Positions 4,162 to 32,403 of a stretch of DNA of 32,760 bases are shown one piece after another. Numbering within the stretch: position 1 is the first letter of the stretch; every line of letters starts with the position of its first letter. This DNA comes from Candidatus Methanomethylophilaceae archaeon (GTDB lineage: Archaea > Thermoplasmatota > Thermoplasmata > Methanomassiliicoccales > Methanomethylophilaceae). Under the pieces are notes generated by a model. That model was not told the DNA's origin and did not search any database. It was given only the letters and a program-made list of their open reading frames with translations. The translations under genes and the position numbers were made by a program. Location: contig JAFVZY010000012.1 of the NCBI GenBank assembly GCA_017507885.1, positions 1 through 32,760 of the forward strand, read 5' to 3'.

Positions 4162-4190
4162 CACATCAATCGAATACCGTGACGACAACC

Positions 4191-4913
4191 ATGGTATCCC
4201 TTTCATCGAACCTCACCGAAGAGGAGGTTAAGCTCCGTTACATCACACCTGCTATAGAGAAGGCAGGGTGGGGGAAAAACAGGATTCGTATGGAACCTTT
4301 GATTGAGGGCAGAATCCTCATCGATGGTGGGGAATCTTACCGTTCCAGAAACACCAGTCATCTGAAACCCGATTATTTGCTGATGACCAGTGGCGGCAAG
4401 TACCTGGCTGTTGTGGAAGCCAAAAACATGGATCACTCAATAAGCGAGGGGATACAGCAATCCAAGAACTATGCTTCCATCCTGGACGTGCCATTCGCCT
4501 TTTCATCAAATGGAGTTGGGTTCTACGAGTTCGATTTTAACACGGGTCTGACTCGCGAGTTATCTATGGGGGACTTCCCCTCCGAAGATGAGCTGTTGGC
4601 ACGGCTGGAATCGGGATGCGGTATCGACAAGGATAGTGCGGTCCTGTATCCGATGCACTATGATGGGGTTGCGTCCCATAGTAAATATTTAGCAAGAGAT
4701 GTGGCAAAGAATGATCTGTGTTCTAGATTGGGCGTAAAAATAATAAGAATCAGGGAAGAAGGATGTCCTGAGATTTCAAGAATAATTTATTCAGTAAAAC
4801 CCAGCATCATGGGGACAGAGTATTTTGAAAGTTTATCTAATGTTATAAGCCTGGTAATTAAGGACATTTTAGATGTTGATATGAATGTAGATGGCATCGC
4901 CCCAACATCGTAG
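4191..4913 (+). CDS. Chimera: type I restriction HsdR N-terminal nuclease domain joined to a Vsr/DUF559-like C-terminus
   Basis: Residues 1 to about 150 match the HsdR_N domain of type I restriction enzymes: TEEEVKLRYITPAIEKAGWG, then KPDYLL and AVVEAK, the D and ExK of a PD-(D/E)xK nuclease (near residues 60 and 74-79), then FSSNGVGFYEFD. A full HsdR has about 800-1100 residues including a DEAD helicase; all of that is absent. From about residue 157 (MHYDGVASH) the protein switches to KYLARDVAKNDLCSRLGVKI, IRIREEGCPEI, the C-terminal half of the nuclease domain found intact at 6040-6300. Base composition also drops from GC-rich to AT-rich here. The octamer TATGATGG is shared by both partners at the joint (4659-4666 and 6167-6174). 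The chimera is in frame, but half of each nuclease is missing or partnerless. Confidence 0.75.
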   Translation: MVSLSSNLTEEEVKLRYITPAIEKAGWGKNRIRMEPLIEGRILIDGGESYRSRNTSHLKPDYLLMTSGGKYLAVVEAKNMDHSISEGIQQSKNYASILDVPFAFSSNGVGFYEFDFNTGLTRELSMGDFPSEDELLARLESGCGIDKDSAVLYPMHYDGVASHSKYLARDVAKNDLCSRLGVKIIRIREEGCPEISRIIYSVKPSIMGTEYFESLSNVISLVIKDILDVDMNVDGIAPTS

Positions 4914-5193
4914 TAAAGATAAAACTCGGTGCCCTTATTGCACCAACCGTTCATTACTGATTGGATACAATGATCTACAAACTATTGCTCCCCAGCTTAT
5001 TTCAGAACTTCATCCCGTGAAAAATGAGGTTCTAGATCCTTCTTTAGTGAAAGCATATTCAAACAAGAAATACTGGTGGATTTGCAAAGAGGGGCACGAG
5101 TGGCAGGCCACTATGAATAATCGTGTTAAGCATAAGTCTGGGTGCCCGATTTGTTATAAACAAAAGGAGGCGGTTAAATACGGCTCCAAATAA
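4891..5193 (+). pseudogene. DUF4379 zinc-ribbon fragment, out of frame with its neighbours
   Basis: The 100-residue frame contains TRCPYCTNRSLLIGYNDL, then NKKYWWICKEGHEWQAT and KSGCPICYKQ: the CPxC, GYND and WWxCxxGHEW hallmarks of one to two DUF4379 (probable zinc-ribbon) units. It overlaps the preceding chimera by 23 bases in another frame. The unit sequence resumes in a third frame after a frameshift near 5180-5195 and an in-frame TGA at 5207-5209 (NTAPNNNLKD-stop-CEKNNPILLEEW). There is no ribosome binding site. It is therefore best read as a broken piece of one larger repeat protein, not a gene of its own. Confidence 0.6.
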
Positions 5194-5230
5194 TAATCTT
5201 AAAGATTGATGTGAGAAAAATAACCCCATT

Positions 5231-7228
5231 TTGCTTGAGGAATGGAATACATTAAAAAATGAAAAGCAGCCAGACCAATTCGCATATCAGAGTAATAAAA
5301 AAGTGTGGTGGATTTGCAAAGAAGGTCATGAATGGCAAGCAGTAATATCCACAAGAACTGTCAGAAGATATGGGTGCCCTTTTTGTTCAAGTCATTCTGT
5401 TTTAAAAGGGTATAATGACATATTTACTCTTAAACCAGACCTTAAAGATCAATGGCATCCATCAAAAAACGATATCGACCCATTTACAACTAGTGCAAAT
5501 TCATCTAAGAAAGTATGGTGGATTTGCAAAGAAGGTCATGAATGGCAAGCAGCCATTAGAGATCGCAATCAAGGTGACGGATGCCCGTATTGTTCTGGCC
5601 ATAGAGTGATGAAGGGTTTCAATGATTTAGAAACAAAAAAACCTGATTTGTCCAATCAATGGCATCCTACAAAGAATGGGTTGTTAAAGCCCAGTGATGT
5701 GACAATAGGTTCACATAAGAAAGTATGGTGGATTGATGAATTAGGTCATGAATGGAATGCAGAGATTAAAAGCAGAGCTCTGGGAGGAAACGGCTGTCCA
5801 TATTGTGCCGGAAGAAAGGTTCTTCAAGGATTCAACGATTTGTTTTCACAAAATCCATCATTGGCTTCAGAATGGAATCAAATAAAGAACGGATCTTTGA
5901 CTCCAGAGGAAGTTACAAGCAACAGTAATAAGATTGTGTGGTGGAAGTGTAATTTATGTGGATATGAGTGGAAAGCCGCTATCAATTATCGTAACGAAGG
6001 GCCAGGATGCCCATATTGTGCGCGTTACACTATGATTTCTTTTGAAGAGAAAGCTATTTCCTACTATCTATCATATATTTTCGAAATTGAAGAGAATTAT
6101 CATAGTAAAGAATTAGGAAAATTTGAGATCGATTGTTACATCCCATCACTAAAAATGGGTATCGAGTATGATGGTGAAAAATGGCATAGAGACGTAGCAA
6201 GAGATATCAGAAAAAACGAATTATGTAAAAGAATTGGAATCGAATTGATAAGGATTCGTGAATCTGGATGCCCCCCTATGAATCAGGGAGTAGTAATCCC
6301 AATAACAAGGAAAGATCGTGGATCTTTAGACAATGCAATAAAAGAATTACTAGCAATCATATCAGATAAAACCAATAAACAATTGTCAATTGATGTAGAC
6401 ACTATAAGAGATGGTGTCAATATTTCAGAGAAAAAATATGTGTCGAAAAGAGAAAAATCATTATTATCGTTAGAGCCAAAACTTGCAACTGAGTGGCATC
6501 CAACAAAGAACGGATTTCTTCTACCATCGAATATTCCATTACACTATAACGGGAAAGTATGGTGGCTAGGTAAATGCGGACATGAATGGCAAGCAACTGT
6601 TAATTCAAGAAGTGCTGGAAATGGGTGTCCGATATGTAATGCAAAGCAAATAAAGATTGGTTTTAATGATCTAGCTACGACCCATCCAGAAATAGCTAAA
6701 CAGTGGCATCCAACAAAGAATGGATCATTAACACCTTTAGATGTTTCTTACGGCACAGATAAGAAAGTGTATTGGATATGTGAAAAGGGACATGAGTGGT
6801 CTGCACTTATTTATTCAAGAGTAAAATCTGGATGCCCCGTTTGTAATCGTAAAAAATTGCTAATTGGATTCAATGATTTAGAAACAGAATATCCAGAAAT
6901 AGCTGAAGAATGGCACTCTGGAAACTCTATTCTTCCTTCACAAGTAATCTCAAAAACTGAAAAGAAATACTGGTGGCTAGGTAAATGCGGACATGAATGG
7001 CAAGCTTCTCCCGGGGAGAGGATCAGAGGCAGAGGTTGTCCGTATTGTGTTTCAAAACGTGTTCTTAAAGGATTCAATGATTTTGGTACAAGTTATCCGG
7101 AATGTTCAAAATATTGGGATTATGAGCATAACGAAAAAAGCCCTTTTGAAATCTCTCCAAAAAGCAATAAAAAGTATTGGTGGAAGTGTGAATTAGGACA
7201 TTCGTGGCAATCTACAGCTGCATCATAG
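5231..7228 (+). CDS. DUF4379 zinc-ribbon repeat protein with an internal Vsr/DUF559-like nuclease domain
   Basis: The 665-residue frame consists of units of about 70 residues with the pattern WW-C-GHEW-R-GCPYC-GFNDL-P-WHPTKNG, i.e. DUF4379 (PF14311), a putative treble-clef zinc ribbon where Cys, His and the CPxC pair bind metal. Four units precede and about four follow a different domain at residues 268-360: GKFEIDCYIPSLKMGIEYDG, then EKWHRDVARDIRKNELCKRI and ELIRIRESGCP. Its ExD and IEYDG acidic residues and the trailing RIRE fit Vsr/DUF559-type PD-(D/E)xK nucleases. The opening TTG 5231 has no ribosome binding site and the family sequence continues upstream beyond a TGA, so the 5' end is damaged. 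The closing stop is TAG, followed by more unit sequence in the same frame. A DNA-binding, cleaving role in defence or mobility is plausible but unproven. Confidence 0.75.
   Translation: MLEEWNTLKNEKQPDQFAYQSNKKVWWICKEGHEWQAVISTRTVRRYGCPFCSSHSVLKGYNDIFTLKPDLKDQWHPSKNDIDPFTTSANSSKKVWWICKEGHEWQAAIRDRNQGDGCPYCSGHRVMKGFNDLETKKPDLSNQWHPTKNGLLKPSDVTIGSHKKVWWIDELGHEWNAEIKSRALGGNGCPYCAGRKVLQGFNDLFSQNPSLASEWNQIKNGSLTPEEVTSNSNKIVWWKCNLCGYEWKAAINYRNEGPGCPYCARYTMISFEEKAISYYLSYIFEIEENYHSKELGKFEIDCYIPSLKMGIEYDGEKWHRDVARDIRKNELCKRIGIELIRIRESGCPPMNQGVVIPITRKDRGSLDNAIKELLAIISDKTNKQLSIDVDTIRDGVNISEKKYVSKREKSLLSLEPKLATEWHPTKNGFLLPSNIPLHYNGKVWWLGKCGHEWQATVNSRSAGNGCPICNAKQIKIGFNDLATTHPEIAKQWHPTKNGSLTPLDVSYGTDKKVYWICEKGHEWSALIYSRVKSGCPVCNRKKLLIGFNDLETEYPEIAEEWHSGNSILPSQVISKTEKKYWWLGKCGHEWQASPGERIRGRGCPYCVSKRVLKGFNDFGTSYPECSKYWDYEHNEKSPFEISPKSNKKYWWKCELGHSWQSTAAS
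5306..5552 (+). repeat. 37-bp exact direct repeat, one unit apart
   Basis: Bases 5306-5342 and 5516-5552 are identical over 37 bp and lie exactly 210 bp (70 codons) apart, within the WWICKEGHEWQA part of adjacent DUF4379 units. This indicates recent unit duplication or gene conversion. Confidence 0.85.
6560..7005 (+). repeat. 35-bp exact direct repeat, two units apart
   Basis: Bases 6560-6594 and 6971-7005 are identical over 35 bp, coding WWLGKCGHEWQA in two units 411 bp (137 codons) apart. Confidence 0.85.
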
Positions 7229-7474
7229 TTTGGTATGAAGGGATGTCCTTATTGCACAGGGCAAAGAATACTGCCTGGCTTCAATGATCTAGAGACAAAG
7301 AAACCAGAATTAGCTAAACAATGGCATCCTACAAGAAATGGTAGTTTGAAACCTTCGGAAGTATTTCCACAAAGCAATAACAAATTCTGGTGGATGTGTC
7401 CAAAAGGGCATGAATGGTATAATTCTCCGGTAATGATGAAAAACGACAATTGTCCGATATGTCGGAAAAGATGA
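7229..7474 (+). CDS. DUF4379 C-terminal segment after an in-frame TAG
   Basis: After TAG 7226-7228 the same frame continues FGMKGCPYCTGQRILPGFND, then AKQWHPTRNGSLKP, FWWMCPKGHEW and finishes CPICRKR with TGA at 7472-7474. Units elsewhere read HEWQ...R..GCPYC, so the TAG replaces one residue of a conserved spacer and nothing else is lost. An independent start at ATG 7235 is possible but has no ribosome binding site. Hence this is either the true C-terminus of the protein from 5231 reached by reading TAG as an amino acid (pyrrolysine in this group), or a remnant cut off by a nonsense mutation. Confidence 0.6.
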   Translation, partial: FGMKGCPYCTGQRILPGFNDLETKKPELAKQWHPTRNGSLKPSEVFPQSNNKFWWMCPKGHEWYNSPVMMKNDNCPICRKR

Positions 7475-7497
7475 ATATAAGTTTAGGAGGGGGTAAG

Positions 7498-7881
7498 ATG
7501 GCAGGTAAGAAGTTCAATATTAGTTTGTACGAATGGTGTTTGCAAAACAACTCGTCGTTGATAGAAGAATGGGATTATTCAAAAAATGTTGATCTAAATC
7601 CGAAAGAGATACCTCCTAAGTATAACGGAAAAGCCTATTGGCTTTGTTCCAAATATAAACATAGTTGGAAATCAGTGGTATCCAAACGTGCTGAAGGGAC
7701 AGGGTGCCCATATTGTTCAAATCGTAAGGTATTGGCTGGTTTTAATGATCTGGCAACCATTGATGAGGAATTGGCTAAACAATGGCATCCAACAATGAAC
7801 GGTGACCTAAAACCAACGGATGTAACAGCGGGATCACATCAAAAGGTTGTATGGAAATGCTCATTGGACCATATTTGGTAG
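7498..7881 (+). CDS. Second DUF4379 repeat gene, 5' part
   Basis: ATG 7498 follows a strong ribosome binding site, AGGAGGGGG at 7485-7493, four bases upstream. The 127 residues begin MAGKKFNISLYEWCLQNN, then a unit NGKAYWLCSKYKHSWKSVVS, CPYCSNRKVLAGFNDLA, then AKQWHPTMNGDLKP and KVVWKCSLDHIW. TAG at 7879-7881 stands where every other unit has Gln (HEWQA), a single CAG to TAG change. The same frame goes on AVVYSRLESGCPYCASRKL, meets a second TAG at 7939-7941, then KGFN, and is broken by the IS at 7953. It resumes beyond the IS at 9797. As it stands only the first 127 residues are made unless TAG is decoded. Confidence 0.65.
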   Translation: MAGKKFNISLYEWCLQNNSSLIEEWDYSKNVDLNPKEIPPKYNGKAYWLCSKYKHSWKSVVSKRAEGTGCPYCSNRKVLAGFNDLATIDEELAKQWHPTMNGDLKPTDVTAGSHQKVVWKCSLDHIW

Positions 7882-7952
7882 GCAGTTGTTTATTCCAGAT
7901 TAGAAAGCGGTTGTCCATATTGTGCAAGTCGGAAATTATAGAAAGGTTTCAA
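7882..7952 (+). pseudogene. Middle piece of the second DUF4379 gene, up to the IS
   Basis: In-frame continuation of the gene from 7498: AVVYSRLESGCPYCASRKL, TAG (7939-7941), KGFN. The final seven bases, 7946-7952, are the left copy of the IS target duplication. Confidence 0.7.
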
Positions 7953-7965
7953 CCTAAATCTGCGG
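7946..7965 (+). repeat. Left target duplication and IS left inverted repeat
   Basis: GTTTCAA (7946-7952) is the target copy; CCTAAATCTGCGG (7953-7965) is the left terminal repeat, matching the right one at 12 of 13 positions. Confidence 0.85.
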
Positions 7966-8047
7966 AACGTATGACTACACAGTTGCAGTACTACATTTTC
8001 CTGATCTTTTGTTTATATACCCTATATAAAGAATATTTAAATCAAAG

Positions 8048-8079
8048 GTATTAAATATGTAACCTTACATATAGGTTAC
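8048..8079 (+). promoter_or_regulatory. Transposase promoter and hairpin
   Basis: A TATA-like GTATTAAATA begins at 8048, about 30 bases before ATG 8082. Between them GTAACC (8059-8064) and GGTTAC (8074-8079) form an inverted repeat. The same GTAACC/GGTTA motif recurs around the stop codon at 9754-9770, so it may be a transposase binding site or a device limiting expression. Confidence 0.5.
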
Positions 8080-8081
8080 CA

Positions 8082-9761
8082 ATGGGTAGCATATTCTACA
8101 TGGAAAGGAATGGCCAGAAGTACGCATACGAGAGCACATCGGTCAGAGTGCCCGGTAGAAAAAACCCAAAAACCATCAAGATCTACCTGGGAAAGGTCGA
8201 CCCTGAAACCGGCAAGATCATTCCCAAGGAGACGAGAAACGCTCCGAAGGAGGAGTATGCCAAATTCTACGGATCGGTCAAATTCCTGGACGGAGTACAG
8301 AAGGAATTGGGGATCTTCGATGACCTCGACTCCGTATTCACCACCATGGCACCCAACATCATGGGTGCAGCGATGGCATTGACCATCAATCCCACTTCAT
8401 TCGACTCCTTACATTACACGGTCGAAGGCTCCGTGATCAAGGAGACGATGAGGTTGAGAGGAACGTCATCTCCATCGACCATCGGCGATCTGTCCGAGAA
8501 AGTAGGTTCCATGATGGTCACCATGGACAGATTCTTTTCCAAAAGGATAGAAAGGACGTCCAGCGGGTTCTTCTCATTGGATTTGACATCGATCTCCTCC
8601 TATTCCGACATGGAAGGTTGGTCCCACTTCGGTCACAACCGTGATGGGGAGAACATGAAACAGACGAACATCGCGATGGTCACCGATGGGAATGGGATCC
8701 CGGTGATGTTCCATATGCTTCCAGGCTCGATAGCTGACATCAGTATCATGAGGTCCACGATCGAGGACATGAGAAACCTGGGTTGTCAGGGCAGGATGAT
8801 CATGGATCGTGGCTTCGAGAGTGCGAGGAACGTCTCCGCATTGTTGGATCTGGACGTCGATTTCACCATGCCCTCCAATGTGAAGTCTGAGCCTATCAAG
8901 AAACTGATGACCAAGGCGATCAAGGAATTGAATCTGTCTTCATCGTTCGCATATCATAACGGTTCAGCATACAAGTATGCGGAATACGAGGTCGGAATCA
9001 TTGACTCGGATGATGGAACGAGCGAATACATCGTCCATGTACCACAGAACCATAAGGATTCCGCAAAGAACAACGAGCTCTTCTCCGGATCCAAGAAACT
9101 GAAAGCGTTCGTAGTGTACGACCCGAGGAAGGCGTCCGATGACATCAACTCCGTGATGTCGATGGTGAACGACGTCGAGTTGAAACTGGAGAACACGAAA
9201 CACGACGACCCTGCGATGACCTATGCGAAACTTCCGTCCTTCGTACGCAGATTCCTGGATTATGAGGTAGACGAGAACGGAACGATGCACATGATCCGCA
9301 AGCAGAACGCGTTCACGTTCGCCGATAACCGTGCAGGAATGTTCGTCATGTTATCTTCGATGGATACGACATGGGAACAGATGATGACTTCCTATGACGT
9401 TCGTGATTGGGTGGAGAAGGCGTTCGATGTCTACAAGAACGATCTTGACGGAAAACGCAACGGGACAGGGAACGTCGAACGTGCAAGAGGCCGTTTCTTC
9501 ATCAAGTTCATAGCATTGATGATGAGAATCCATATCCAGAATGTCCTGAGGGAACACGATCGGAACACCTTGTCCACGAGAGCGGAGAAGGACTCCGTCA
9601 ACGGAATGACGGTTGATGAGTTGCTCCTCTCGCTCAACACGGTGTTCGCCATAGGTAACACCGGCAACTGGAGACTCACGGCCATATCCAAGAACGTACG
9701 TGAAATATTCTCCACATTCGGACTTGAACCGCCTCAATCCGGACAGATCATCTTAGGTTAA
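8082..9761 (+). CDS. IS1634-family (IS4-like) DDE transposase
   Basis: The 559-residue protein cuts and pastes its own element. It shows the IS4/IS1634 pattern: an N-terminal segment reading YESTSVRVPGRKNPKTIKIY LGKVDPETG; first catalytic Asp in FFSLDLTSISSYSD (about residue 168) followed by GHNRDGENMKQTNIAMV and PVMFHMLPGSIAD; second Asp in MIMDRGFES (about 242); and Glu in SYDVRDWVEKAFDVYKNDLD (about 444), the YREK-like signature. Length is normal for the family. ATG 8082 fits the TATA box spacing; the frame closes with TAA inside a palindrome. Its base composition is GC-richer than the surrounding DUF4379 array, closer to the host chromosome, suggesting long residence in this or a related genome. 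Confidence 0.93.
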   Translation: MGSIFYMERNGQKYAYESTSVRVPGRKNPKTIKIYLGKVDPETGKIIPKETRNAPKEEYAKFYGSVKFLDGVQKELGIFDDLDSVFTTMAPNIMGAAMALTINPTSFDSLHYTVEGSVIKETMRLRGTSSPSTIGDLSEKVGSMMVTMDRFFSKRIERTSSGFFSLDLTSISSYSDMEGWSHFGHNRDGENMKQTNIAMVTDGNGIPVMFHMLPGSIADISIMRSTIEDMRNLGCQGRMIMDRGFESARNVSALLDLDVDFTMPSNVKSEPIKKLMTKAIKELNLSSSFAYHNGSAYKYAEYEVGIIDSDDGTSEYIVHVPQNHKDSAKNNELFSGSKKLKAFVVYDPRKASDDINSVMSMVNDVELKLENTKHDDPAMTYAKLPSFVRRFLDYEVDENGTMHMIRKQNAFTFADNRAGMFVMLSSMDTTWEQMMTSYDVRDWVEKAFDVYKNDLDGKRNGTGNVERARGRFFIKFIALMMRIHIQNVLREHDRNTLSTRAEKDSVNGMTVDELLLSLNTVFAIGNTGNWRLTAISKNVREIFSTFGLEPPQSGQIILG

Positions 9762-9770
9762 TGTAACCTA
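9754..9770. repeat. Palindrome across the transposase stop codon
   Basis: TAGGTTA-ATG-TAACCTA has perfect 7-bp arms and contains the TAA stop. It echoes the GTAACC/GGTTAC pair near the start of the gene. Confidence 0.7.
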
Positions 9771-9776
9771 TACAAC

Positions 9777-9796
9777 CCGCAGATTCAGGGTTTCAA
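9777..9796 (+). repeat. IS right inverted repeat and right target duplication
   Basis: CCGCAGATTCAGG (9777-9789) is the right terminal repeat and GTTTCAA (9790-9796) the second target copy. Confidence 0.85.
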
Positions 9797-10013
9797 TGAT
9801 TTATTGACAAAGAATCCAGATCTTTGTAAGGAATGGAATGATAGTAGGAGTCCAGAAGATTTTATGGAATTCTCTAATGAGAAAGTATCATGGAAGTGCA
9901 GTCATTGTGAACATAAGTGGTCTGCATCAATAGCTCATAGATCAAATGGAGAAGGCTGCCCTCGTTGTAAAAAACATCATCAAACATCAGTTAATGAAGT
10001 AGCAATACCTTAT
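9797..10013 (+). pseudogene. DUF4379 continuation downstream of the IS
   Basis: Directly after the right target copy the frame of the gene from 7498 resumes: DLLTKNPDLCKEWNDSRSPE, then VSWKCSHCEHKWSASIAHRS and GEGCPRCKKHH, followed by TSVNEVAIPYR. The segment SVNEVAIPY resembles the start of a nuclease domain (compare SFEEKAISYY in the intact one), but it is cut off at about 10013 where the GC-rich recombinase sequence begins. So this second gene also probably once carried a nuclease domain. Confidence 0.65.
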
Positions 10014-10027
10014 AGGCGTCCTCGGAC

Positions 10028-10753
10028 ATGGTCCACGAGATCAACTCGCTCCGTCAGCTCCTCCTGTACGCGGGTAACAGCTCCCTGGACGTGTGTCTCG
10101 CGCACAATCCGCAGCTGAAACCCGTGAACAGGCCTCAGAGGAAGCCCTCGATGGACGAGTCCGTCTATCGCAGGATAATGGACCGTTCCGCGCAGATCGA
10201 CCCGCGCGACTTCGAACGCCTCAGGGCGTACGCGCTGGTCGTTCTGTGCATCAACACCGGCACCCGCAACAAGGAGATAAGGTTCGCCAACGTGGACGAC
10301 CTGGACACCAACAACTGGATCCTGGACATCGTCCACGTCAAGGGCGAGGCCAGCTACGGTCAGCCCCGCAGGGTCCCCGTGCCCCCGGAGGCCCGTCCTG
10401 TCGTCACCAATTACCTCCTTGCTAGGTCCGCATGGCTGCACCGCCGTGGCGTGTCGTCCCCCGCCCTGTTCCCCTCCAGGAGTCCGGGTTCCCCCTACCT
10501 GTGCGGAAACAGCATCAGGAAGATGAAGGACCTGGTCGAGAGGGAGATAGGCGTCGACTTCGACCTCCGTCAGTGCCGCAGGACCTTCGGTCAGAGGTAC
10601 CTCGACAGGGACCTCGACATCGAGTCCGTGAGCGTGCTGATGGGCCATTCGACCACCCGCATGACCGAGACCTTCTACAGCAGGCGCAAGCTTGACACCG
10701 CTGTAAACAGGGCCGCGGCCGTTTGGGACGGGACGGAGGCCTCCGAGGAGTGA
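10028..10753 (+). CDS. Tyrosine recombinase/integrase, 5'-truncated
   Basis: The 241-residue frame contains the catalytic domain of a phage-integrase-type recombinase: first Arg in NTGTRNKEIRFANVDDLD, the beta-hairpin Lys in VHVKGEASYGQPRRVPVP, box II LRQCRRTFGQRYL (Arg present, but the usual leading His of HxxR is Arg), His in LMGHSTTRMTETFYSRR and the nucleophile Tyr in the same segment. The DNA-binding N-terminal SAM-like domain is mostly missing: only EINSLRQLLLYAGNSS of its end remains, then an in-frame TAG at 10014 and AT-rich foreign DNA. Full-length relatives have about 300-400 residues. ATG 10028 lacks a visible ribosome binding site and TATA box. Probably inactive. Such recombinases often sit in type I restriction loci, fitting the HsdR remnant 5 kb upstream. 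Confidence 0.75.
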   Translation: MVHEINSLRQLLLYAGNSSLDVCLAHNPQLKPVNRPQRKPSMDESVYRRIMDRSAQIDPRDFERLRAYALVVLCINTGTRNKEIRFANVDDLDTNNWILDIVHVKGEASYGQPRRVPVPPEARPVVTNYLLARSAWLHRRGVSSPALFPSRSPGSPYLCGNSIRKMKDLVEREIGVDFDLRQCRRTFGQRYLDRDLDIESVSVLMGHSTTRMTETFYSRRKLDTAVNRAAAVWDGTEASEE

Positions 10754-11101
10754 TACCATGGTTTCGTCGGACGTGTTCAGAGGACCCGTGAACGCACATC
10801 AGATGTGTGCATTCCACGCGAAAACCCCATCCGGATTTTTTCCAAGTCCGGGTGTGGACAATTTTTGCGATTCACCACTGTGGAGATGCCCCCTCCCTGT
10901 GCGTGAGGGACACCTTGAATGTACGTCCGTTGAAGCCCTCGGGACGCTCCGCGGGGCATGGCCAGACATCGAGGATGACGGTTCCCGCGGGACCACCGCA
11001 GGGACCGGTAGGTACATCGATTTCCCCAGGGAGACTTACAATTTCGAATGGTGGACAACGTTTTCGAGCCCGAAAAAAACAATCTGGACAGGTGAAAATG
11101 G
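10754..11101. other. Non-coding stretch between recombinase and tRNA
   Basis: I see no gene in these 348 bases; open frames here run into the tRNA and lack family features. AATGGTGGACAA occurs at 11047-11058 and again at 11097-11108, the second copy covering the tRNA 3' end. Confidence 0.5.
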
Positions 11102-11175
11102 TGGACAAGGCGAGATTCGAACTCGCGACTTCTGCCTTGCGAAGGCAGCGATCTACCGGGCTGATCTACTTGCCC
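11102..11175 (-). tRNA. tRNA-Ala (anticodon CGC)
   Basis: On the minus strand a 74-base cloverleaf folds: acceptor GGGCAAG with CTTGTCC, D stem GATC/GATC, anticodon arm CTGCC-TTCGCAA-GGCAG with anticodon CGC, variable AAGTC, T arm GCGAG-TTCGAAT-CTCGC, discriminator A73. The G3-U70 wobble in the acceptor is the alanine identity element. CCA is not encoded in full (CC follows A73). No intron. It reads GCG alanine codons, frequent in this GC-rich genome. Confidence 0.95.
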
Positions 11176-12603: not shown

Positions 12604-13281
12604 TCACTGCTTCTTCTCGCGACGGAAGCACATGAACCAGTCGAGACAGTACATGTCGGGGTCGTTGGACTCGACACGCTCCTTCGCCACTCCGCATGAT
12701 CCCGCGGTCGGGACGATGACGTCGTCGCCGGGTCTCCAGTTTGCGGGGGTGGCGCAGTTGTCCGCATCGGCCTTCTGAAGGGCGATGATTACCCTCTTGA
12801 TCTCATCGAAGTTCCTTCCGAGGGACAGGGGGTAGTAGATGATCGCCCTGATCTTTCCCTTGGGGTCGATGAAGAACACGGACCTGACGGCCTGGGTGGT
12901 GGATGCGCCGGGCTGGATCATGCCGTACTTCGCGGCGACCTCCATCTTGATGTCCTCGATGAGGGGGAAGGTGACCTCGACGTTCTTCAGACCGTTCCAC
13001 TCGATCTCCTGGATCTTCCTGAGCCATGCGATGTGGGCGTACAGGGAGTCGACGGACAACCCGATCAACTCGGTGTTCAGCTCCTTGAACTCCTCGAGCA
13101 TGGATGCGAAGGTCATGAACTCCGTGGTGCAGACCGGTGTGAAGTCCGCGGGATGGGAGAACAGGATGACCCACTTGCCCTTGTAGTCCTCGGGGAAGCT
13201 GATTTCACCCTGGGTGGTGACGGCCTTGAAGGCGGGTGCGTCATCATTGATGAGCGGCATCTTGTAGTCCTGGTTTTCCAT
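12604..13281 (-). CDS. Peroxiredoxin (AhpC/TSA, Prx6-like), copy 1
   Basis: The 225-residue enzyme reduces hydrogen peroxide and organic peroxides. The peroxidatic Cys51 lies in the signature HPADFTPVCTTEF; the catalytic Arg context is VRSVFFIDPKGKIRA. C-terminal cysteines in TAGSCG and YCLDWFMCFR fit the archaeal decameric Prx6-type enzymes in which they serve as resolving cysteines. ATG 13281 was chosen: the frame stays open upstream, but only as a shadow of copy 2. A GAGGT ribosome binding site (minus strand, 13293-13288) and a TATA box at 13319-13324 precede it, so this copy has its own promoter. It is very similar to the next gene, with differences mainly at the N-terminus, in scattered positions and in a shorter C-terminus. 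Confidence 0.93.
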   Translation of the reverse strand: MENQDYKMPLINDDAPAFKAVTTQGEISFPEDYKGKWVILFSHPADFTPVCTTEFMTFASMLEEFKELNTELIGLSVDSLYAHIAWLRKIQEIEWNGLKNVEVTFPLIEDIKMEVAAKYGMIQPGASTTQAVRSVFFIDPKGKIRAIIYYPLSLGRNFDEIKRVIIALQKADADNCATPANWRPGDDVIVPTAGSCGVAKERVESNDPDMYCLDWFMCFRREKKQ

Positions 13282-13318
13282 TTTCTTAACCTCGTTAAAG
13301 AATATCTTAACGATAGGA

Positions 13319-13324
13319 TATATA
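13319..13324 (-). promoter_or_regulatory. TATA box of peroxiredoxin copy 1
   Basis: TATATA, centred 40 bases before ATG 13281, would give a leader of about 14 bases containing the GAGGT ribosome binding site. Confidence 0.5.
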
Positions 13325-13337
13325 GATTTTGGAAACC

Positions 13338-14060
13338 TCAGTCTATGATGTCCTTCAACTCCTCGATGAGTCCCTTCTTGACGGAGTTGGCCCTCCTGAA
13401 GCACATGAACCAGTCGAGGCAGTAGATGTTGGGATCCTTGGATTCCATGCGCTCCTTGGCGGTTCCGCATGATCCCGCGGTGGGCACGATGACGTCGTCC
13501 CCGGGTCTCCAGTCGGCGGGTGTCGCACAGTTCTCGGCATCCGCCTTCTGGAGTGCGAGCACGACCCTCTTGATCTCGTGGAAGTTCCTTCCGAGGGACA
13601 GGGGATAGTAGATGATGGCCCTGATCTTCCCCTTGGGATCGATGAAGAACACCGACCTGACGGCCTGGGTGGTGGATGCCCCGGGCTGGATCATTCCGTA
13701 CTTCGCGGAGATCTCCATCTTGATGTCCTCGATCAGGGGGAAGTTGATCTCGACATCCTTCATCCCGTTCCACTCCAGCTCCTTGATCCTCCTGAGCCAT
13801 GCGATGTGCGCATAGAGGGAATCAACGGAGAGCCCGACGAGTTCGGTGTTGATCTTCTTGAAATCCTCCGCCATGGAGCCGAAGGTCATGAACTCCGTGG
13901 TACAGACGGGTGTGAAGTCCGCCGGATGGGAGAAGAAGACCACCCATTTCCCTTTGTAGTCCTCGGGGAAGCTGATCTCCCCCTGTGTGGTCACCGCCTT
14001 GAACGGAGGGGCGTCCTCGTTGATGGTGGGCATGCGGTTGAACTGTTCGAATTGATTCAT
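13338..14060 (-). CDS. Peroxiredoxin (AhpC/TSA, Prx6-like), copy 2
   Basis: The 240-residue tandem paralogue of the gene downstream has the same signature (HPADFTPVCTTEF, Cys53), the same GASTTQAVRSVFFIDPKGK core and the same C-terminal YCLDWFMCFR cysteines. It differs by an N-terminal MNQFEQFNR and a C-terminal extension ending VKKGLIEELKDIID. ATG 14060 is preceded by GAGGTG. The stop lies 57 bases before the start of copy 1, so the pair may be partly co-transcribed although copy 1 has its own TATA box. Tandem duplication gives extra dosage and could allow different induction. Function follows securely from the family; the electron donor is not known, but the rubredoxin/ferredoxin pair nearby is a candidate. 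Confidence 0.93.
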   Translation of the reverse strand: MNQFEQFNRMPTINEDAPPFKAVTTQGEISFPEDYKGKWVVFFSHPADFTPVCTTEFMTFGSMAEDFKKINTELVGLSVDSLYAHIAWLRRIKELEWNGMKDVEINFPLIEDIKMEISAKYGMIQPGASTTQAVRSVFFIDPKGKIRAIIYYPLSLGRNFHEIKRVVLALQKADAENCATPADWRPGDDVIVPTAGSCGTAKERMESKDPNIYCLDWFMCFRRANSVKKGLIEELKDIID

Positions 14061-25446: not shown

Positions 25447-26778
25447 ATGAACCATGGAAAGGGACCGTTCGGGAATGGTTTCAAAGGCATCATCTTCGAC
25501 ATGGACGGGGTGATCTTCGATTCCGAATCCGTCTGGAGGGATGCGACATTCGAGGTCAACCCCCAGTTCGGAATCGAATTCGACGATGCATACAGGCAGA
25601 GCCTTTGCGGAATGGATGAGAGGAGCATACGTTCAAGGATCTCATCGGATTTCCCACACGCCGATGTGGACGAATACCGCGATGCCGTGATATCCGAGGT
25701 GAACGGGAGATTGCTCTCCGGAATCCCTCCCAGACCCGGATTCCTGGAATTCCTGGAGGTTTGCAGGGCGGAGGGCATGAGGATCGGATTGGCCACATCC
25801 AGCGACCCGGGACGCGCCATGACCATGTTCGAAGCCGACGGCCTGGATCCGGACATCCTGTTCGATGCCACCGCCTTCGGAACCGAGGTCTCCGAATCGA
25901 AACCCGATCCCGAGATATTCCTGTTGGCATCGTCAAGAATGGGGTTGGACCCCGAGTCCTGCCTCGTTCTCGAGGATTCGCTCAACGGTCTGAAGGGGGC
26001 ATTCGACGGAGGATTCCACCCGATGATGCTGGTGGACCTCGTGGAACCGGACGGATGGGTGGCATCCAAGGGGATACCGGTATTCCACGACTTCGAAGGT
26101 CTTTTGAGACTCGGAAGGTTCGTGCATCGTCCGAAAGAATACGATGTCGGCAAAAGGGGTCCGTCCCATTCCGTCTTCATGGGTTATTCCGATCCGACCT
26201 TCTCGATCACGGCCAGATTGGATGTCACCGACCTGTACGACCGGTGCAAATCCGAACACCGCTCGTTCTTCATCGAATTCCTCCACATGGTGTCCGTCGC
26301 ATCCAACGGGGTGGAGAACTTCAGACTCCGCCTGATGGATGGGAAACTCGTGATCTTCGATGTGATCGACCCCAGCTACGTCGTCATCAGGGACGATGAC
26401 ACCATCTGCACCAGCAGCGTCACGTTCACCCCGGATCGCGACGGGTTCTTCGAAAGGGTCAGGGCGGACGTGGACGCCTGCAAATCCCCCGACCACGAAC
26501 CCTCGTTCAGCGGAAACCGTAGATTGGACCTGCTGTACGTGTCCTGTCTGCCATGGATTGACTTCGTATCGGTCAAGAATCCCTACGATCTGAAATCCAT
26601 CGACGAATGCAGCATCCCCCGCATCACATGGGGAAGGGTCGTGGACGACGGTGGCCGTCGCAGACTGACGGTCGACGTATCGGCCCATCACGCCCTGATG
26701 GACGGATATCACATCGCATCCTTCTTCAACGGTTTGCAGGACCTTCTCGACGGATTCATCGGCGATCCATCCGATTGA
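25447..26778 (+). CDS. Fusion: HAD phosphatase/mutase-like domain and chloramphenicol acetyltransferase-like domain
   Basis: Residues 1 to about 220 form a HAD hydrolase of the beta-phosphoglucomutase type: GIIFDMDGVIFDSESVW (D18, D20), LATSSDPGRAM, SESKPDPEIFL and LVLEDSLNGLKGA supply the four HAD motifs. Residues from about 228 (KEYDVGKRGPSHSVFMGYSD) to 443 match the chloramphenicol acetyltransferase fold: FSITARLDVTDLY, VASNGVENFRLRL, SCLPWIDFVSVKNP, CSIPRITWGRV and the catalytic HHALMDGYH (about 413-421), i.e. HHxxxDGxH. Both active sites look intact. The HAD part should dephosphorylate or isomerise a small phosphate, the CAT-like part acetylate a small hydroxyl compound from acetyl-CoA. 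Substrates are unknown and resistance is not implied. It lies 7 bases after etfA and its end overlaps the next gene tail-to-tail. Confidence 0.85.
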   Translation: MNHGKGPFGNGFKGIIFDMDGVIFDSESVWRDATFEVNPQFGIEFDDAYRQSLCGMDERSIRSRISSDFPHADVDEYRDAVISEVNGRLLSGIPPRPGFLEFLEVCRAEGMRIGLATSSDPGRAMTMFEADGLDPDILFDATAFGTEVSESKPDPEIFLLASSRMGLDPESCLVLEDSLNGLKGAFDGGFHPMMLVDLVEPDGWVASKGIPVFHDFEGLLRLGRFVHRPKEYDVGKRGPSHSVFMGYSDPTFSITARLDVTDLYDRCKSEHRSFFIEFLHMVSVASNGVENFRLRLMDGKLVIFDVIDPSYVVIRDDDTICTSSVTFTPDRDGFFERVRADVDACKSPDHEPSFSGNRRLDLLYVSCLPWIDFVSVKNPYDLKSIDECSIPRITWGRVVDDGGRRRLTVDVSAHHALMDGYHIASFFNGLQDLLDGFIGDPSD

Positions 26779-29700
26779 ACAGTTCCGATGGGAAACAGAG
26801 CAGTTCCGAACCGTTGTTGTGTGACACCAGCACCTTGGGGTGACGACCTTCGACGACACCGTTTATGCAATCGACGAGGAATGCGATATCGGGGATGTCC
26901 GCATACCCCGGATCATACCTTCCCAGGATATCGTGGAGGCACTCCGGACCCGACCCCCTCCTCACGGCGATGCACAACTCCACGAACAGGGAATCCGGGC
27001 CGTTCGCGAAGGAACAACCCTCCAGGATACCAAAAGCCTCCTCGTAGTACGAAACCCCCCTCTCCGCATCCGGAACCAGGGAACCGAGGCAGATGTAGGT
27101 GTTGGCACAGTAGGGATGCCCGGGCCCGTTCCTGTCGTTCTTGTATCCGGCTATGCGGAGGAACTCCCCCTCGTCGAAGGAACCTTTCAGGGAATCTATG
27201 AGCGCCCTGTTGTTGTAGGAGGTCAAGGAATAGGAATGGGGACGTTGCTCCTCCGGAAGGACCGAATCGTTCAGTTCGATCGATCTGCTCTGGATCGTGC
27301 GGGCCTCGTCGTACGATTCCTCGAAGGTGAGGCTGTTGGCATGGTTCACAAGACTCCATGCGCATTCCACGCTGTTCTCACCGTATGTTCTGCTGTAGAC
27401 GTCCACCGCCTTCCATGAGACGTCCTTCGCCTTCGAGATCTGTCCGATCTTGGCCAGATACGTCCAATAATAGCAGTACTCCCAGGCGACCTCCGGGGAT
27501 TTCTCACCGTAGAGGCGTCTGCGGACGTCCAATGCGTATTCGTACATGGGACGGGAGTCATCCAACCTTCCGACGGCGAGATAGCAGCTGGCGAGGTTTC
27601 CGGAGACCCAGGACGAATGATAGTTGTCGATGCCCCTGGCCCGATACAGACCGTTCAGGTACTCGTACGAACGTATGGCCTCGTCCACCCTCCCGCAGGA
27701 ATCCGCCGATATTGCGTACTTCAGGATGTAATCGGCGGGACCCAGTTCATCATCGGGGAACTCGGACCTGTATTCGTCTATGATCCCCCTGTAGGTATCG
27801 CATGCGCGCACGAATCCGTCCAATCCCAGCTTGTATTCGGACCTGGCCACGGCGTTGAGGACCGCATACTTCGATGACCCCAGAACGGAAAGGTCCTCGG
27901 GGACGATCTCCATGCAGGTCCTGAAACAACCGCTCTCGACCAGGATGGGACACAACGTCGGGAGGTCCGTGATCTCGAGATCCCTCTTCAGACCCCGCAC
28001 CAGGAGGTCGTTGTCGCTTCTGAGATGGTTGAACGAACGTATCAGCAGGTTGTGGTCCTCGGAATCAAGAGCCCGGTAGACCTCCCTCCTGGTGACGAGA
28101 TCGGCCAACCCCTCGAAATCACGGACCGCCCCGTACTGGTATGCCAATTCCACATGGGAATCGACATCGTCCGACCCCGCATGGTATCCGATCATCCTCG
28201 AACGCACCGCCCCCTCACGGGGACGCCCCCTCCCGACCATGCAGTCCAGCATCAGGTCGTGGTCGACCCTGAGATGTCCATCGACGTTGGTGATGAAGGA
28301 TTCGAACGCCTGCAGGACCATCACCCTGGTTATTGCGTTGACACCCAGCATCCCTCCGATGTCGCGCTCCCTCACACCCCTGTACGAGAACGCGACCAGA
28401 TCCAGGATGTCGGTGATGGCTCCGGGGTCCATGTTGATGCCTGTCAACGCCCCCTCGAGATTCTCCACGATGGCATCCAGAAGCTCCGACAGGTCCGATA
28501 TCGAGACGATCCTGTCGATGTAGGAGTTGAAGGTGTCGTAATCGCCGTACACCCTCAACAGGTCGCATACGGCGATGAGGTTCAACGGGGAATCGATGAA
28601 TGCGTTGGAGACGAGTTTCGTCATATTGGCCGGGGACAGGGTCTTCCCGTACCTCCCGAGATAGGACTCCAACAGGACGGTCTTGTCACGGGACCCCAGG
28701 GATGTCAGATGGTATTCCGATGCGGACGGCTCCCTGTCGGTCACCGATGCCGTGCTGGAGCATACCACGTGCAACGAGGGGTTGTTGCAGGCCAGCTCAT
28801 AGAGTTCCAGATCCAGGTTGTGACTGGTATGGACCTTCTCCGTGGCATCCAGGAACAGGTACAGCTCCCTGTCATGGGGCCACATCCCGATCAATTCCTT
28901 CAACATGCTGTCCGGACTGTCGGAGGTGATGTCCACCGGACCCAGATGGAACTCCATGAACCTCCTGAGACGGTCGCAGATCGTATCCATGATCATGCTG
29001 TCCTCCCCGATTCCGGAGAAGTGGAAGAATACGGTGCGGTCCCTGCCGACACCGATCTCCCCTATGAGATGGGCCATGAGGGAGGTCTTTCCGGAACCCT
29101 TGTCACCCCTGATGTGGACGTAACCGTTCCCCTCGATCAGGTCCGCGAGACCGTCGTGGGACGACAGGCGTATGTATCTGGCGGTGCGCTCGTTCAGGAT
29201 GGCCAGATGGGAGGGGTACCCCGGATCCCCGTAGGGCAGTTCCATCCGGGGGCATTCCCCGTCGATCTGCGCATGCAGCATGGAATAGGCCTGCTCCTCG
29301 AAATCATGGATGTCACGGTAATACGTGCCGCCCATTGCCTCCAACTCCGTCTTCAGATCGAACAACCGCTTCTCGTCGTCCTCCTTGTCCTTCATATGGA
29401 ACGAATAGAGCGTCCTCCCGAATCTCGGATTGAGGCCTGTGCGGATCTCCATCTCGGTTATGCTCATCCCCTCGACATCGTCACGGTCCAGATAGTTCTC
29501 CAGACCTCCGCCGACCCTTCCGATCTCGTATTCGTTGGGGACGTAACCGTGACGTTTCCCGAGGATGCCCATGAAGAACGGCCTGCACCTCAGAACCTCC
29601 CCGAGACAGATCTCTATGACCTTCCCCGTCTCCGAAAGATCCTCCGGCAGACCCCATCTGAGGTCCACATCGATGATTTCCACCGAACGGTCGGCGAAAT

Positions 29701-29824
29701 CGCGTCTCAATCTGGGGAAGACGGACCTCACCAGGACCTCCCTCTCCCTCTGCAGATCGCTGAATGTCGACGATATGAAGATACGAATTGTCTTGTGACC
29801 GCTGTCTCCGAAATTAGGGATCAT
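26756..29824 (-). CDS. DUF4062 - STAND NTPase - TPR protein
   Basis: The 1022-residue protein starts with DUF4062 (about 10-170): KTIRIFISSTFSDLQREREV, then IIDVDLRWGL and RPFFMGILGKRHGYVP, as in animal TEP1/NPHP3-type proteins. A P-loop NTPase of the STAND/NACHT kind follows: Walker A IRGDKGSGKTSLMAHLIGE (about 237-255), Walker B ELYLFLDATEKV (about 320-331), and a winged-helix-like segment. From about 640 to 980 TPR-type repeats follow, e.g. DEAIRSYEYLNGLYRARG and LDDSRPMYEYALDVRRRLYG. This is the plan of immune-type switches: effector/adaptor, switch, ligand-sensing repeats. The predicted role is sensing of an intruder or stress; the ligand and effector activity are unknown. ATG 29824 is 26 bases from a TATA box, so leaderless. 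It is divergent to the SLOG-SLATT gene. Confidence 0.85.
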   Translation of the reverse strand: MIPNFGDSGHKTIRIFISSTFSDLQREREVLVRSVFPRLRRDFADRSVEIIDVDLRWGLPEDLSETGKVIEICLGEVLRCRPFFMGILGKRHGYVPNEYEIGRVGGGLENYLDRDDVEGMSITEMEIRTGLNPRFGRTLYSFHMKDKEDDEKRLFDLKTELEAMGGTYYRDIHDFEEQAYSMLHAQIDGECPRMELPYGDPGYPSHLAILNERTARYIRLSSHDGLADLIEGNGYVHIRGDKGSGKTSLMAHLIGEIGVGRDRTVFFHFSGIGEDSMIMDTICDRLRRFMEFHLGPVDITSDSPDSMLKELIGMWPHDRELYLFLDATEKVHTSHNLDLELYELACNNPSLHVVCSSTASVTDREPSASEYHLTSLGSRDKTVLLESYLGRYGKTLSPANMTKLVSNAFIDSPLNLIAVCDLLRVYGDYDTFNSYIDRIVSISDLSELLDAIVENLEGALTGINMDPGAITDILDLVAFSYRGVRERDIGGMLGVNAITRVMVLQAFESFITNVDGHLRVDHDLMLDCMVGRGRPREGAVRSRMIGYHAGSDDVDSHVELAYQYGAVRDFEGLADLVTRREVYRALDSEDHNLLIRSFNHLRSDNDLLVRGLKRDLEITDLPTLCPILVESGCFRTCMEIVPEDLSVLGSSKYAVLNAVARSEYKLGLDGFVRACDTYRGIIDEYRSEFPDDELGPADYILKYAISADSCGRVDEAIRSYEYLNGLYRARGIDNYHSSWVSGNLASCYLAVGRLDDSRPMYEYALDVRRRLYGEKSPEVAWEYCYYWTYLAKIGQISKAKDVSWKAVDVYSRTYGENSVECAWSLVNHANSLTFEESYDEARTIQSRSIELNDSVLPEEQRPHSYSLTSYNNRALIDSLKGSFDEGEFLRIAGYKNDRNGPGHPYCANTYICLGSLVPDAERGVSYYEEAFGILEGCSFANGPDSLFVELCIAVRRGSGPECLHDILGRYDPGYADIPDIAFLVDCINGVVEGRHPKVLVSHNNGSELLCFPSELFNRMDRR

Positions 29825-29846
29825 CCACGCTCCATCCCCATGAGCG

Positions 29847-29892
29847 AATATAATGGATTCGAACCGCCCGCGAACGATATCTGCTTTTATAT
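29847..29892. promoter_or_regulatory. Divergent promoter pair of the putative conflict system
   Basis: Two TATA boxes lie back to back: ATTATATT on the minus strand (29854-29847), 26 bases from ATG 29824, and TTTATAT on the plus strand (29886-29892), 28 bases from ATG 29917. Only 92 bases separate the two ATGs, so a regulator bound between the boxes could control both genes. Confidence 0.6.
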
Positions 29893-29916
29893 CGGTTGAA
29901 TCACATGCCCCCGCGT

Positions 29917-32403
29917 ATGCTTCCTGAGCCGATGATAGACAACATCCTCAAAATGGCCAAGATGATCCATGAGGATTACAACAGGAACAGACTGAGGGAG
30001 TACCCCGACAAACCGTTGGAATACCCCGCATGGGACGATCTCCCGTCCGATTTGAAATACTCCAACATCAGACAGGCTCAGAAGATTCCGGAGAAACTCG
30101 CACTCATAGACTGCTACATAGGCGGAGACGACGCGGATGCCGTGACCTCCTTCACCGAGGAGGAGGTCGAGATCATGTCCATCAAGGAACACGACCTCTG
30201 GGTGGAGGAGAGGGAATCCAACGGTTGGGTCTATGCGCCGGTCAAGAACGTCGAAAGGAAGGAATCCCCCTACATCGCACCCTGGGAGCAGATTCCCGAA
30301 AGAATAAAGGAATACGACAGGGAACCCACCAGGAACATCATCCGCCTGGTCAACGCCGTCGGCCTCAATGTGTGCAGGCATCCCAGAAAGGACGAGGCCA
30401 TCCCGGAATTCAGATTCCACAAGGGCCGTGACGCCCCGCTCATCATATCCGTCTCCGGACACATCGACATCCGTCCGGAGGATGCGGAACGCGCAGGGGA
30501 ATCGTTCGGGAGACTCGTGGGGATGCTGAAGGAATCCTACCCGAACACGGGGATCATCGTCATGACCGCCCTGGCCGAGGGTTCCGACCGCATCATCGCA
30601 AGGAAGGCCATGGAACTCGGATTGAACATCGCCCCCGTGTTCCCGTTCGAACGGGAGGCGTACATCAGGACGTTCAAAGGGATCGGATATGCGGACGTGG
30701 CCGAATCCGTCGCGGATTTCGATTCGATACTGTCCGATAAACGCACATACACCCCTTGCGTCCTGATCAAAAGGAGGATCAACGAGGTCCTGGGATTCCG
30801 TGCGTTGGCGGCATATCTGATTTCCAACTCCCACATCGTGGTCTCCCTGTGGAACGGCAGGAGGTCGCAATACCGCGGAGGCACCTATGACACCATCCGC
30901 ATGGCGTTCGAGGGTATAGACGACGACGTCTCGAGATACACGTCACCCCGTACGTCGTTATCGGACAACGTGGAGAACGATTCCACCCACTACCTGGACT
31001 CCCTCAACGACGCCCTCATCGCGTGGATAGGTGTCGACAGGACCTCCGATGATTCCACTGCGGACATCCCGGTCACATCCTGCATCACCGATGACGGGGG
31101 GTTGCCGGACCTGTGTTTCATCACGGAGTCGGATGAGGGGGGACAGGGGATAAGGGATCGTCTCAGGACACGTTCCGATGGGTCGGTCGACAGGCGCATC
31201 CAGATCACCGATGAGACCAGTACCCTGATCACCGAGAGGATTCCGGAGGGGTTCGACAGGTCGTTCCGCATCCTCGACAACATGAACTCCGACATCGACG
31301 GGTTCGGAACGTCCATGGACGGGATCCGCGACATCGAGCACCTGGAATACGAATCGGCCTCCGATGGGAGACGCAAGGTGCTCACCGAGATGACGGAGAG
31401 GCTCAGGGTGATGGACGGCCTGTCCCAGTCGTACAGGAGAAGGAGCAGGAAGGCCGTGGACACCATGAACGTCCTGACCGCCCTCTACACCATGCTGTTC
31501 AGCCTGTTGATCCTGTTCAACGGTTCCGCATCGGTCTCCATAGCATACACGCTCATATACGGGATCACCACCGGTCTCCTGATACTCCACAAGAAGACGG
31601 AGGAGCACGACAGGTTCGTGAACTATCGTGCCGTGGCCGAGAACATCAGGGTGGAGTACTATTGGAGCATCGTCGGGATATGCGACACGTCCTATGACAA
31701 CATCACGAACTACGTCAGCGGGGGACAGGCGTGGATGCGCACGGTGATGAAGAGCTACAGCTCCTATTTCGTCAACGATTACGCCTCGTGTTTCAACATC
31801 GACATGAGGGATCGCATGGAGTATGTCAAGAACTCCTGGATAAGGGAGCGTAAGGAGGTCAGCGAGTCCATCATCGAGAAGGAATCCCGGAAATCCAAAT
31901 TGTATGACAATGGCAACAAGATACTGTCCGTCGTGATCACGGTGATGAGCGTCATCAGCACCGTGATCGTGGTCCTGTTGCTCAACGACTTCAGCGACAC
32001 CATCCTGACCTATGAGGATTCCATCAATTCCATGGAGATCCTGATCAGTGAATTCACGATACTGAAGATATTCATGATCATACTGATCAACGCATCGTCC
32101 CTTCTGATGATGAGGAAGAATCAGCTCAATTTCGTGGAGGATGGAAGCATGAGCGCGGCGAGCATGATCTTCTCCAAATCGTTGATGAAGATGGACAAGA
32201 CGCAGAACACGTCCGATTCGGTCATCATGCAACGCAACCTCAACATCATACATGAACTGGGATTGTTCGCGATAGGCGAGAACAACAACTGGGTGCGTGA
32301 ATCCGAGAGGAAGGACTATCGGAAGGGTGCGAAACTTGTGGATGTGGTGAACAGAAGATCCAAAAACTCCGATGCGGGAAATCATCTCCATGATTCGGAT
32401 TGA
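29917..32403 (+). CDS. RyR - SLOG - SLATT membrane protein
   Basis: Three parts are visible in about 828 residues. Residues 1-155 hold two RyR-like segments: MIHEDYNRNRL with AWDDLPSDLKYSNIRQAQKI, and IKEHDLWVEERESNGWVYAP with YIAPWEQIPERIKEYDR. Residues about 172-345 resemble a SLOG nucleotide-binding Rossmann fold: PLIISVSGHIDI, then IIVMTALAEGSDRIIARKAM and NIAPVFPFEREAYI, and later NSHIVVSLWNG. From about 490 a SLATT-type effector follows: a helix RRRSRKAVDTMN, hydrophobic pair TALYTMLFSLLILF and TLIYGITTGLLIL, the motif YRAVAENIRVEYYW, then more hydrophobic segments near 668-690 and 715-735. SLOG proteins bind nucleotide-derived signals and SLATT is a predicted membrane-pore effector. 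Start ATG 29917 fits the TATA box; 29905 is possible. Confidence 0.8.
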   Translation: MLPEPMIDNILKMAKMIHEDYNRNRLREYPDKPLEYPAWDDLPSDLKYSNIRQAQKIPEKLALIDCYIGGDDADAVTSFTEEEVEIMSIKEHDLWVEERESNGWVYAPVKNVERKESPYIAPWEQIPERIKEYDREPTRNIIRLVNAVGLNVCRHPRKDEAIPEFRFHKGRDAPLIISVSGHIDIRPEDAERAGESFGRLVGMLKESYPNTGIIVMTALAEGSDRIIARKAMELGLNIAPVFPFEREAYIRTFKGIGYADVAESVADFDSILSDKRTYTPCVLIKRRINEVLGFRALAAYLISNSHIVVSLWNGRRSQYRGGTYDTIRMAFEGIDDDVSRYTSPRTSLSDNVENDSTHYLDSLNDALIAWIGVDRTSDDSTADIPVTSCITDDGGLPDLCFITESDEGGQGIRDRLRTRSDGSVDRRIQITDETSTLITERIPEGFDRSFRILDNMNSDIDGFGTSMDGIRDIEHLEYESASDGRRKVLTEMTERLRVMDGLSQSYRRRSRKAVDTMNVLTALYTMLFSLLILFNGSASVSIAYTLIYGITTGLLILHKKTEEHDRFVNYRAVAENIRVEYYWSIVGICDTSYDNITNYVSGGQAWMRTVMKSYSSYFVNDYASCFNIDMRDRMEYVKNSWIRERKEVSESIIEKESRKSKLYDNGNKILSVVITVMSVISTVIVVLLLNDFSDTILTYEDSINSMEILISEFTILKIFMIILINASSLLMMRKNQLNFVEDGSMSAASMIFSKSLMKMDKTQNTSDSVIMQRNLNIIHELGLFAIGENNNWVRESERKDYRKGAKLVDVVNRRSKNSDAGNHLHDSD

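Follow-up and report, generated by a model that had tools for sequence, protein, structure and literature searches.

The stretch of DNA analysed here (the window) comprises bases 1-32760 of contig C88 in an archaeal draft genome of 1.64 Mb, and contains three tandem, partly broken genes, designated gene 0, gene 1, and gene 2, that combine arrays of DUF4379 units with a Vsr-like nuclease domain. On balance, with a chance that we put at slightly above even, these genes are the remains of free-standing homing-type site-specific endonucleases with modular zinc-unit DNA recognition. This explanation is based on the architecture of the genes, the catalytic residues, the predicted fold, the conservation of variable residues in the closest pair of orthologs, and changes in unit number, together with a patchy presence, an insertion relative to sister species, and the homing settings of phage relatives. 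If true, it would give archaeal and bacterial chromosomes a further class of free-standing homing-type genes.

Under this explanation, the substrate would be DNA, the units would read its sequence, and the genes would spread by homing. In an intact enzyme, DUF4379 treble-clef zinc units on either side of a central nuclease of the Vsr/EDxHD fold would bind a long DNA site, with each unit adding local contacts via its variable residues. The nuclease would cut, and recombination would copy or carry the gene into the cut site or a neighbouring one. The arrays would evolve through the gain, loss, and conversion of units, altering both the length and the specificity of the target.

Units were called with PF14311 (DUF4379) at the family cut-off of 24.5 bits, and the nuclease was called with our own hidden Markov model (HMM). 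An earlier reading of this DNA (the original prediction) had claimed at least eleven units; PF14311 gives 13, each above the cut-off, spanning 4996-9977, and all of them lie in this stretch of the genome. The same reading placed arrays at 4659-10013 around an embedded nuclease. The units and the nuclease are confirmed, but reading of the frames splits the stretch into three tandem genes rather than one array, and the segment at 8082-9761, which had been taken as array, is the transposase of an insertion sequence (IS).

The layout of the intact gene is represented by homologues, for which the search yielded 80 loci from bacterial and archaeal genomes and ten from viral contigs. Typically, our unit and nuclease profiles find a first group of units ahead of the nuclease, which is followed by a linker bearing a D-D-RD motif and a second group of units. 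Units flanking a Vsr-like nuclease on both sides are intact in about 70 other loci, and cellular homologues usually have 5-14 units and a central nuclease. Two archaea of the same genus have complete genes, one of 853 residues (L024:5729-8290) and one of 589 residues (L025:2998-4767), and an intact bacterial homologue is at L106:8022-10121. The end of the intact array gene in L024 is overlapped by a RES-domain gene (L024:8265-9164), a pairing unseen elsewhere; another genome of the genus has a lone relic unit with a TAG between housekeeping genes (L026:7496-7657).

In gene 1, the nuclease domain and its linker occupy 6029-6451 on the plus strand (own HMM, E 2e-40), which bears out the intact nuclease domain expected at 6040-6300, and the residues S, E, D, E, H, and K are all present. 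Among 71 sequences, S, E, D, E, and H are invariant and K is kept in at least 90%. An AlphaFold2 model of unit-nuclease-unit reaches a mean pLDDT of 93, and its nuclease matches E. coli Vsr (1vsr) in Foldseek with a probability of 1.00 and a root-mean-square deviation of 2.6 over 97 columns (E 0.027). The central domain is, by its modelled fold and its conserved catalytic-type residues, a Vsr/EDxHD-type nuclease; the Vsr-like fold and conserved acidic residues in intact homologues agree with the original prediction. Two further nuclease fragments that it proposed were also recovered: the half domain at 4659-4913 gives an HMM match at 4659-4889 (E 3e-15), and the third, which it thought might begin at 9985, starts with TSVNEVAI just before 10013, with the invariant S and E kept. 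Note that the model of the 665-residue open reading frame (ORF) of gene 1 has a pLDDT of 91 but a pTM of only 0.49, so that the placement of its domains is uncertain and the geometry of the array cannot be judged from it.

To what extent the units carry positional information bears directly on the explanation. The framework is strongly conserved across the 635 distinct units compared, and some 16 columns (15 or more) vary freely; the unit surfaces are thus not invariant, as the original prediction requires. Within a protein, the units match one another at 19% of these variable columns. If the columns were a free surface, fast drift between orthologs would be expected there. Instead, in the closest informative ortholog pair (L094/L106, with a synonymous difference of about 0.4), the variable columns are 91% identical, and the ratio of nonsynonymous to synonymous change (dN/dS) is 0.06 in the variable columns and 0.07 in the framework. 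In the other ortholog pairs, the variable-column dN/dS is 0.28-0.82, the highest value (0.82) being that of L043/L049, and none of the ortholog pairs compared shows positive selection (dN/dS >1) on these columns. Judged from these sequences, the residues that vary between units probably carry positional information.

An alternative is that the zinc units are a non-specific tether, binding nucleic acid or serving as spacers without reading sequence, with the variable columns as unconstrained surface and the nuclease, like Vsr, directed at structures or repair intermediates. Such a tether would account for the clostridial clade, where identity drops to 25-47% in the variable columns but remains at 61-74% in the nuclease, and for the absence of a compact two-residue code, since at least 15 columns vary per unit. 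It does not sit well with selection on the variable columns equal to that on the framework in L094/L106, or with the 61-67% identity of these columns in L033/L054 and L078/L083, which is far above the within-protein background, and we consider the tether unlikely. The conservation and the drift within the clade, taken together, would look like position-specific recognition with episodic retargeting. The units do not have the organization of a transcription activator-like effector (TALE) code, in which repeats are near-invariant and one or two positions set the specificity, again because at least 15 columns vary; this difference does not exclude a modular reading. The original idea of a modular recognition array guiding a single nuclease is retained in part: the intact proteins fit it, and the phage relatives described below favour DNA over RNA, but no recognition code was found.

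The relatives in phages provide the setting. Their PHROG matches are to endonuclease and homing endonuclease, and among viral predicted structures further phage and giant-virus relatives are named endonuclease or homing endonuclease. One phage relative is located within a split RNA-polymerase gene, and a Hef-like relative in Campylobacter phage Los1 lies beside recA and near nrdB (ribonucleotide reductase). In the T5-like phage S124 (L126:3926-4789), a gene beside nrdD joins a T5orf172/MUG113 domain, which we take to be a GIY-YIG-type nuclease, to DUF4379/CapR units. A clean empty site in T5-like phages was considered and rejected, as the relatives carry decayed remnants. A viral contig (L110:8019-11699) has two tandem array-nuclease genes after a ribonucleotide-reductase-like gene, the second of which matches the Mom DNA-modification family at its C-terminus. 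Both nrdB and nrdD have been recognised as targets of homing (PMC2988022). Since the same units are paired with two unrelated nucleases in homing settings, we argue that DUF4379 units may act as DNA-addressing modules.

The array might instead recognise RNA, the protein being an RNA-directed nuclease or an RNA-processing factor. The nearest solved unit structures raise this possibility: they belong to proteins and assembly factors of the trypanosomatid mitoribosome that carry the DUF4379 annotation. However, the nuclease fold is that of a Vsr-like DNA endonuclease with its catalytic residues conserved, and the phage relatives occur in DNA-homing settings, one with a GIY-YIG-type domain and one with a Mom match; an RNA target appears very unlikely to us.

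The proposed evolution by unit exchange has its own evidence. Exact repeats of 37 bp (5306-5342, second copy 5516-5552) and 35 bp (6560-6594, second copy 6971-7005), both on the plus strand and both noted in the original prediction, were confirmed. When codons were shuffled 2000 times among synonymous positions within the same ORF, 0.4% of the shuffles reached 37 bp and none had a second repeat of at least 35 bp. Because codon bias does not explain the exact repeats, they support recent conversion or duplication between units, as had been suggested. Moreover, the clostridial homologues have 5, 4, 4, 3, and 2 units before the nuclease, that is, array length varies by whole units among close homologues. 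Recent duplication of whole genes in tandem, by comparison, was rejected for most of the clusters compared: at least two array ORFs occur in 12 of the 90 loci, those compared are mostly diverged members, and the nucleases of neighbours are only 31-51% identical in most clusters. The exception is L109 (67% identical).

With regard to mobility, units above the family cut-off are present in 4 of 121 genomes (the window's own genome and 120 relatives), and in two bacterial groups the gene was found, at the set threshold, in 4 of 397 and 6 of 398 genomes, with an internal stop in three of the ten carriers. At the L025 site, a junction between a GGGtGRT gene and a thiolase gene, the flanking genes are separated by 20-68 bp in three sister species versus 3.4 kb in the carrier. 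In L042 and L051, identity is 99-100% over the gene but mostly 60-80% over the left flank, and a serine recombinase follows; large serine recombinases also adjoin array genes in L033, L034, and L039. The sampled cellular loci are free-standing and lie in varied settings.

These distributions can also be read as those of a defence nuclease, belonging to the host or to a mobile element, in which tandem genes with different arrays would provide innate modular cutting of phage or plasmid DNA. The diverged tandem paralogues (in the window as well as in the clusters above), the cargo position within recombinase-bearing elements, the patchy presence, and a DUF4062/STAND/TPR gene in the same window are all compatible with this role. 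On the other hand, PADLOC models give no significant match (best E 0.012), few defence-model matches were obtained among the 110 neighbouring proteins, and no partner or operon gene recurs among them, including any that would protect self DNA. The phage homologues, in addition, occupy homing-type positions, and a defence role seems unlikely to us.

Several observations weigh against homing-type endonucleases themselves. The strong selection result depends on one close pair (L094/L106), and homing genes do not typically form tandem clusters of diverged members. Some copies are carried as cargo beside serine recombinases, and the insertion in L025 also contains a second ORF. No introns were found at the sampled array loci, and the cellular copies there are neither inside introns nor at one recurrent site. 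Finally, the solved unit relatives sit in trypanosomatid mitoribosome assembly complexes, which is an RNA setting.

The three genes of the window are in various states of decay, and all are on the plus strand. The array stretch is low in GC (36-39% at 5001-8000 versus 53-63% over most of the remaining window). Gene 0 is a chimera that begins with what is left of a type I restriction HsdR N-terminal domain (4179-4652; PF04313, E 1.8e-7), followed in frame by the second half of a Vsr-like nuclease with a truncated start (4653-4889), which is 49% identical to the gene 1 nuclease across 43 residues. After a frameshift and a missing segment, the shifted frame (4891-5193) has the end of a unit and one last, full unit (4996-5160; PF14311, E 5.8e-20). 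Gene 1 (5180-7474, with ORF 5231-7228) has 9 units when translated with its TAG read through, in the order of 4 units, nuclease, linker, and 5 units; its defects are an ACG in place of the start codon (5180), a TGA replacing a Trp codon (5207), and a TAG at 7226. In gene 2, a good start is followed by three units and the first residues of the nuclease. Its first part (7498-7952) contains the ATG, two units (7558-7725 and 7771-7929), and TAG at 7879 and 7939; its second part (9789-10013) contains the third unit (9822-9977; PF14311, E 3.2e-15) and the nuclease start, which ends at about 10013. Between them lies the IS with its DDE transposase (about 7953-9788; PF01609, ends read from the sequence), which sits exactly between two units and is flanked by the 8-bp repeat GGTTTCAA. 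Partial copies of the IS are present elsewhere in the genome.

Readthrough as pyrrolysine may occur at the in-frame TAG codons at 7226, 7879, and 7939. Most of the genomes sampled from the genus have a pyrrolysyl-tRNA synthetase, and in the window's genome there are two partial matches to it, which lie on separate contigs. However, pyrrolysine was rejected as a rescue from decay: the TGA at 5207 and the lost start are beyond the reach of TAG readthrough, so that the N-terminus of gene 1 has decayed. Gene 2 is also interrupted by the IS and gene 0 is truncated, so that the cluster as a whole has decayed; its genes are probably inactive for the most part, and gene 1 is the most complete of them.

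The cluster adjoins a tyrosine integrase (10028-10753, plus strand; PF00589, E 7.7e-16) and, beyond it, a tRNA-Ala (11099-11175). No duplication of a tRNA-Ala attachment site of at least 13 bp was found inside the window, and for the window's own island, the sister species show no similarity upstream of 11278. Elsewhere in the window, a group II intron D1-D4 match (909-1083) lies within 3-1083 on the minus strand, with a reverse-transcriptase-like ORF running off the window start. Two very similar peroxiredoxin-like genes are adjacent at 12604-14060 (minus strand), beside a rubredoxin/rubrerythrin-like gene. At 26756-32403, the DUF4062-STAND-like-TPR gene (minus strand) is next to a plus-strand gene that matches RyR and, weakly, DUF4231 (SLATT-like); the two are a possible conflict or defence pair.

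More broadly, DUF4379 arrays could be a general, modular DNA-addressing platform of mobile genes, both cellular and viral, whose effectors (Vsr-type nuclease, GIY-YIG-type nuclease, and Mom-like domain) are exchangeable. Each unit would read a short sub-site with its variable residues, the arrays would retarget as units are gained, lost, or converted, and the addresses would be decodable in principle. We offer this wider proposal tentatively and consider it less likely than not. The family is a candidate system for modular DNA recognition. Should the units read DNA, it would form an extensive natural group of single-chain nucleases with long targets, built of repeated 70-residue zinc modules, in which gains and losses of units remodel the recognition surface. 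With hundreds of unit sequences available that are conserved in a position-specific manner, a recognition code could be tested for directly.

Among known proteins, E. coli Vsr, which functions in very short patch repair, shares the nuclease fold (1vsr) and lacks the zinc-unit array. The Hef-like protein of Los1, found by tblastn with gene 1, has zinc units and an MTES_1575-type nuclease match as here, but it is phage-borne, has few units, and has an extra C-terminal match to the Mom family. The trypanosomatid DUF4379 proteins mt-SAF33 and mS66 resemble the units in sequence (phmmer E 7.5e-6) and in fold (Foldseek E 8e-6); they are mitoribosome or assembly proteins, and their records name no nuclease domain. 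The EDxHD homing endonuclease I-Bth0305I likewise joins a Vsr-like nuclease to DNA-binding modules and has a very long target, while it is not reported with DUF4379 arrays in the text consulted (PMC3943268). Close counterparts are the proteins of four phage group II introns described independently in 2025 (PMC12350094), which also combine repeated zinc-type DUF4379/CapR-related domains with an EDxHD/Vsr-like nuclease; that study terms the intron homing endonucleases a large unrecognised outgroup with thousands of hits. Those proteins have three to five such domains with a C-terminal nuclease and are encoded in introns, whereas the cellular homologues here usually have 5-14 units around a central nuclease and are free-standing in chromosomes, sometimes in tandem. 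The family thus belongs to a known kind, and what is new is its long arrays, central nuclease, chromosomal location, and tandem arrangement.

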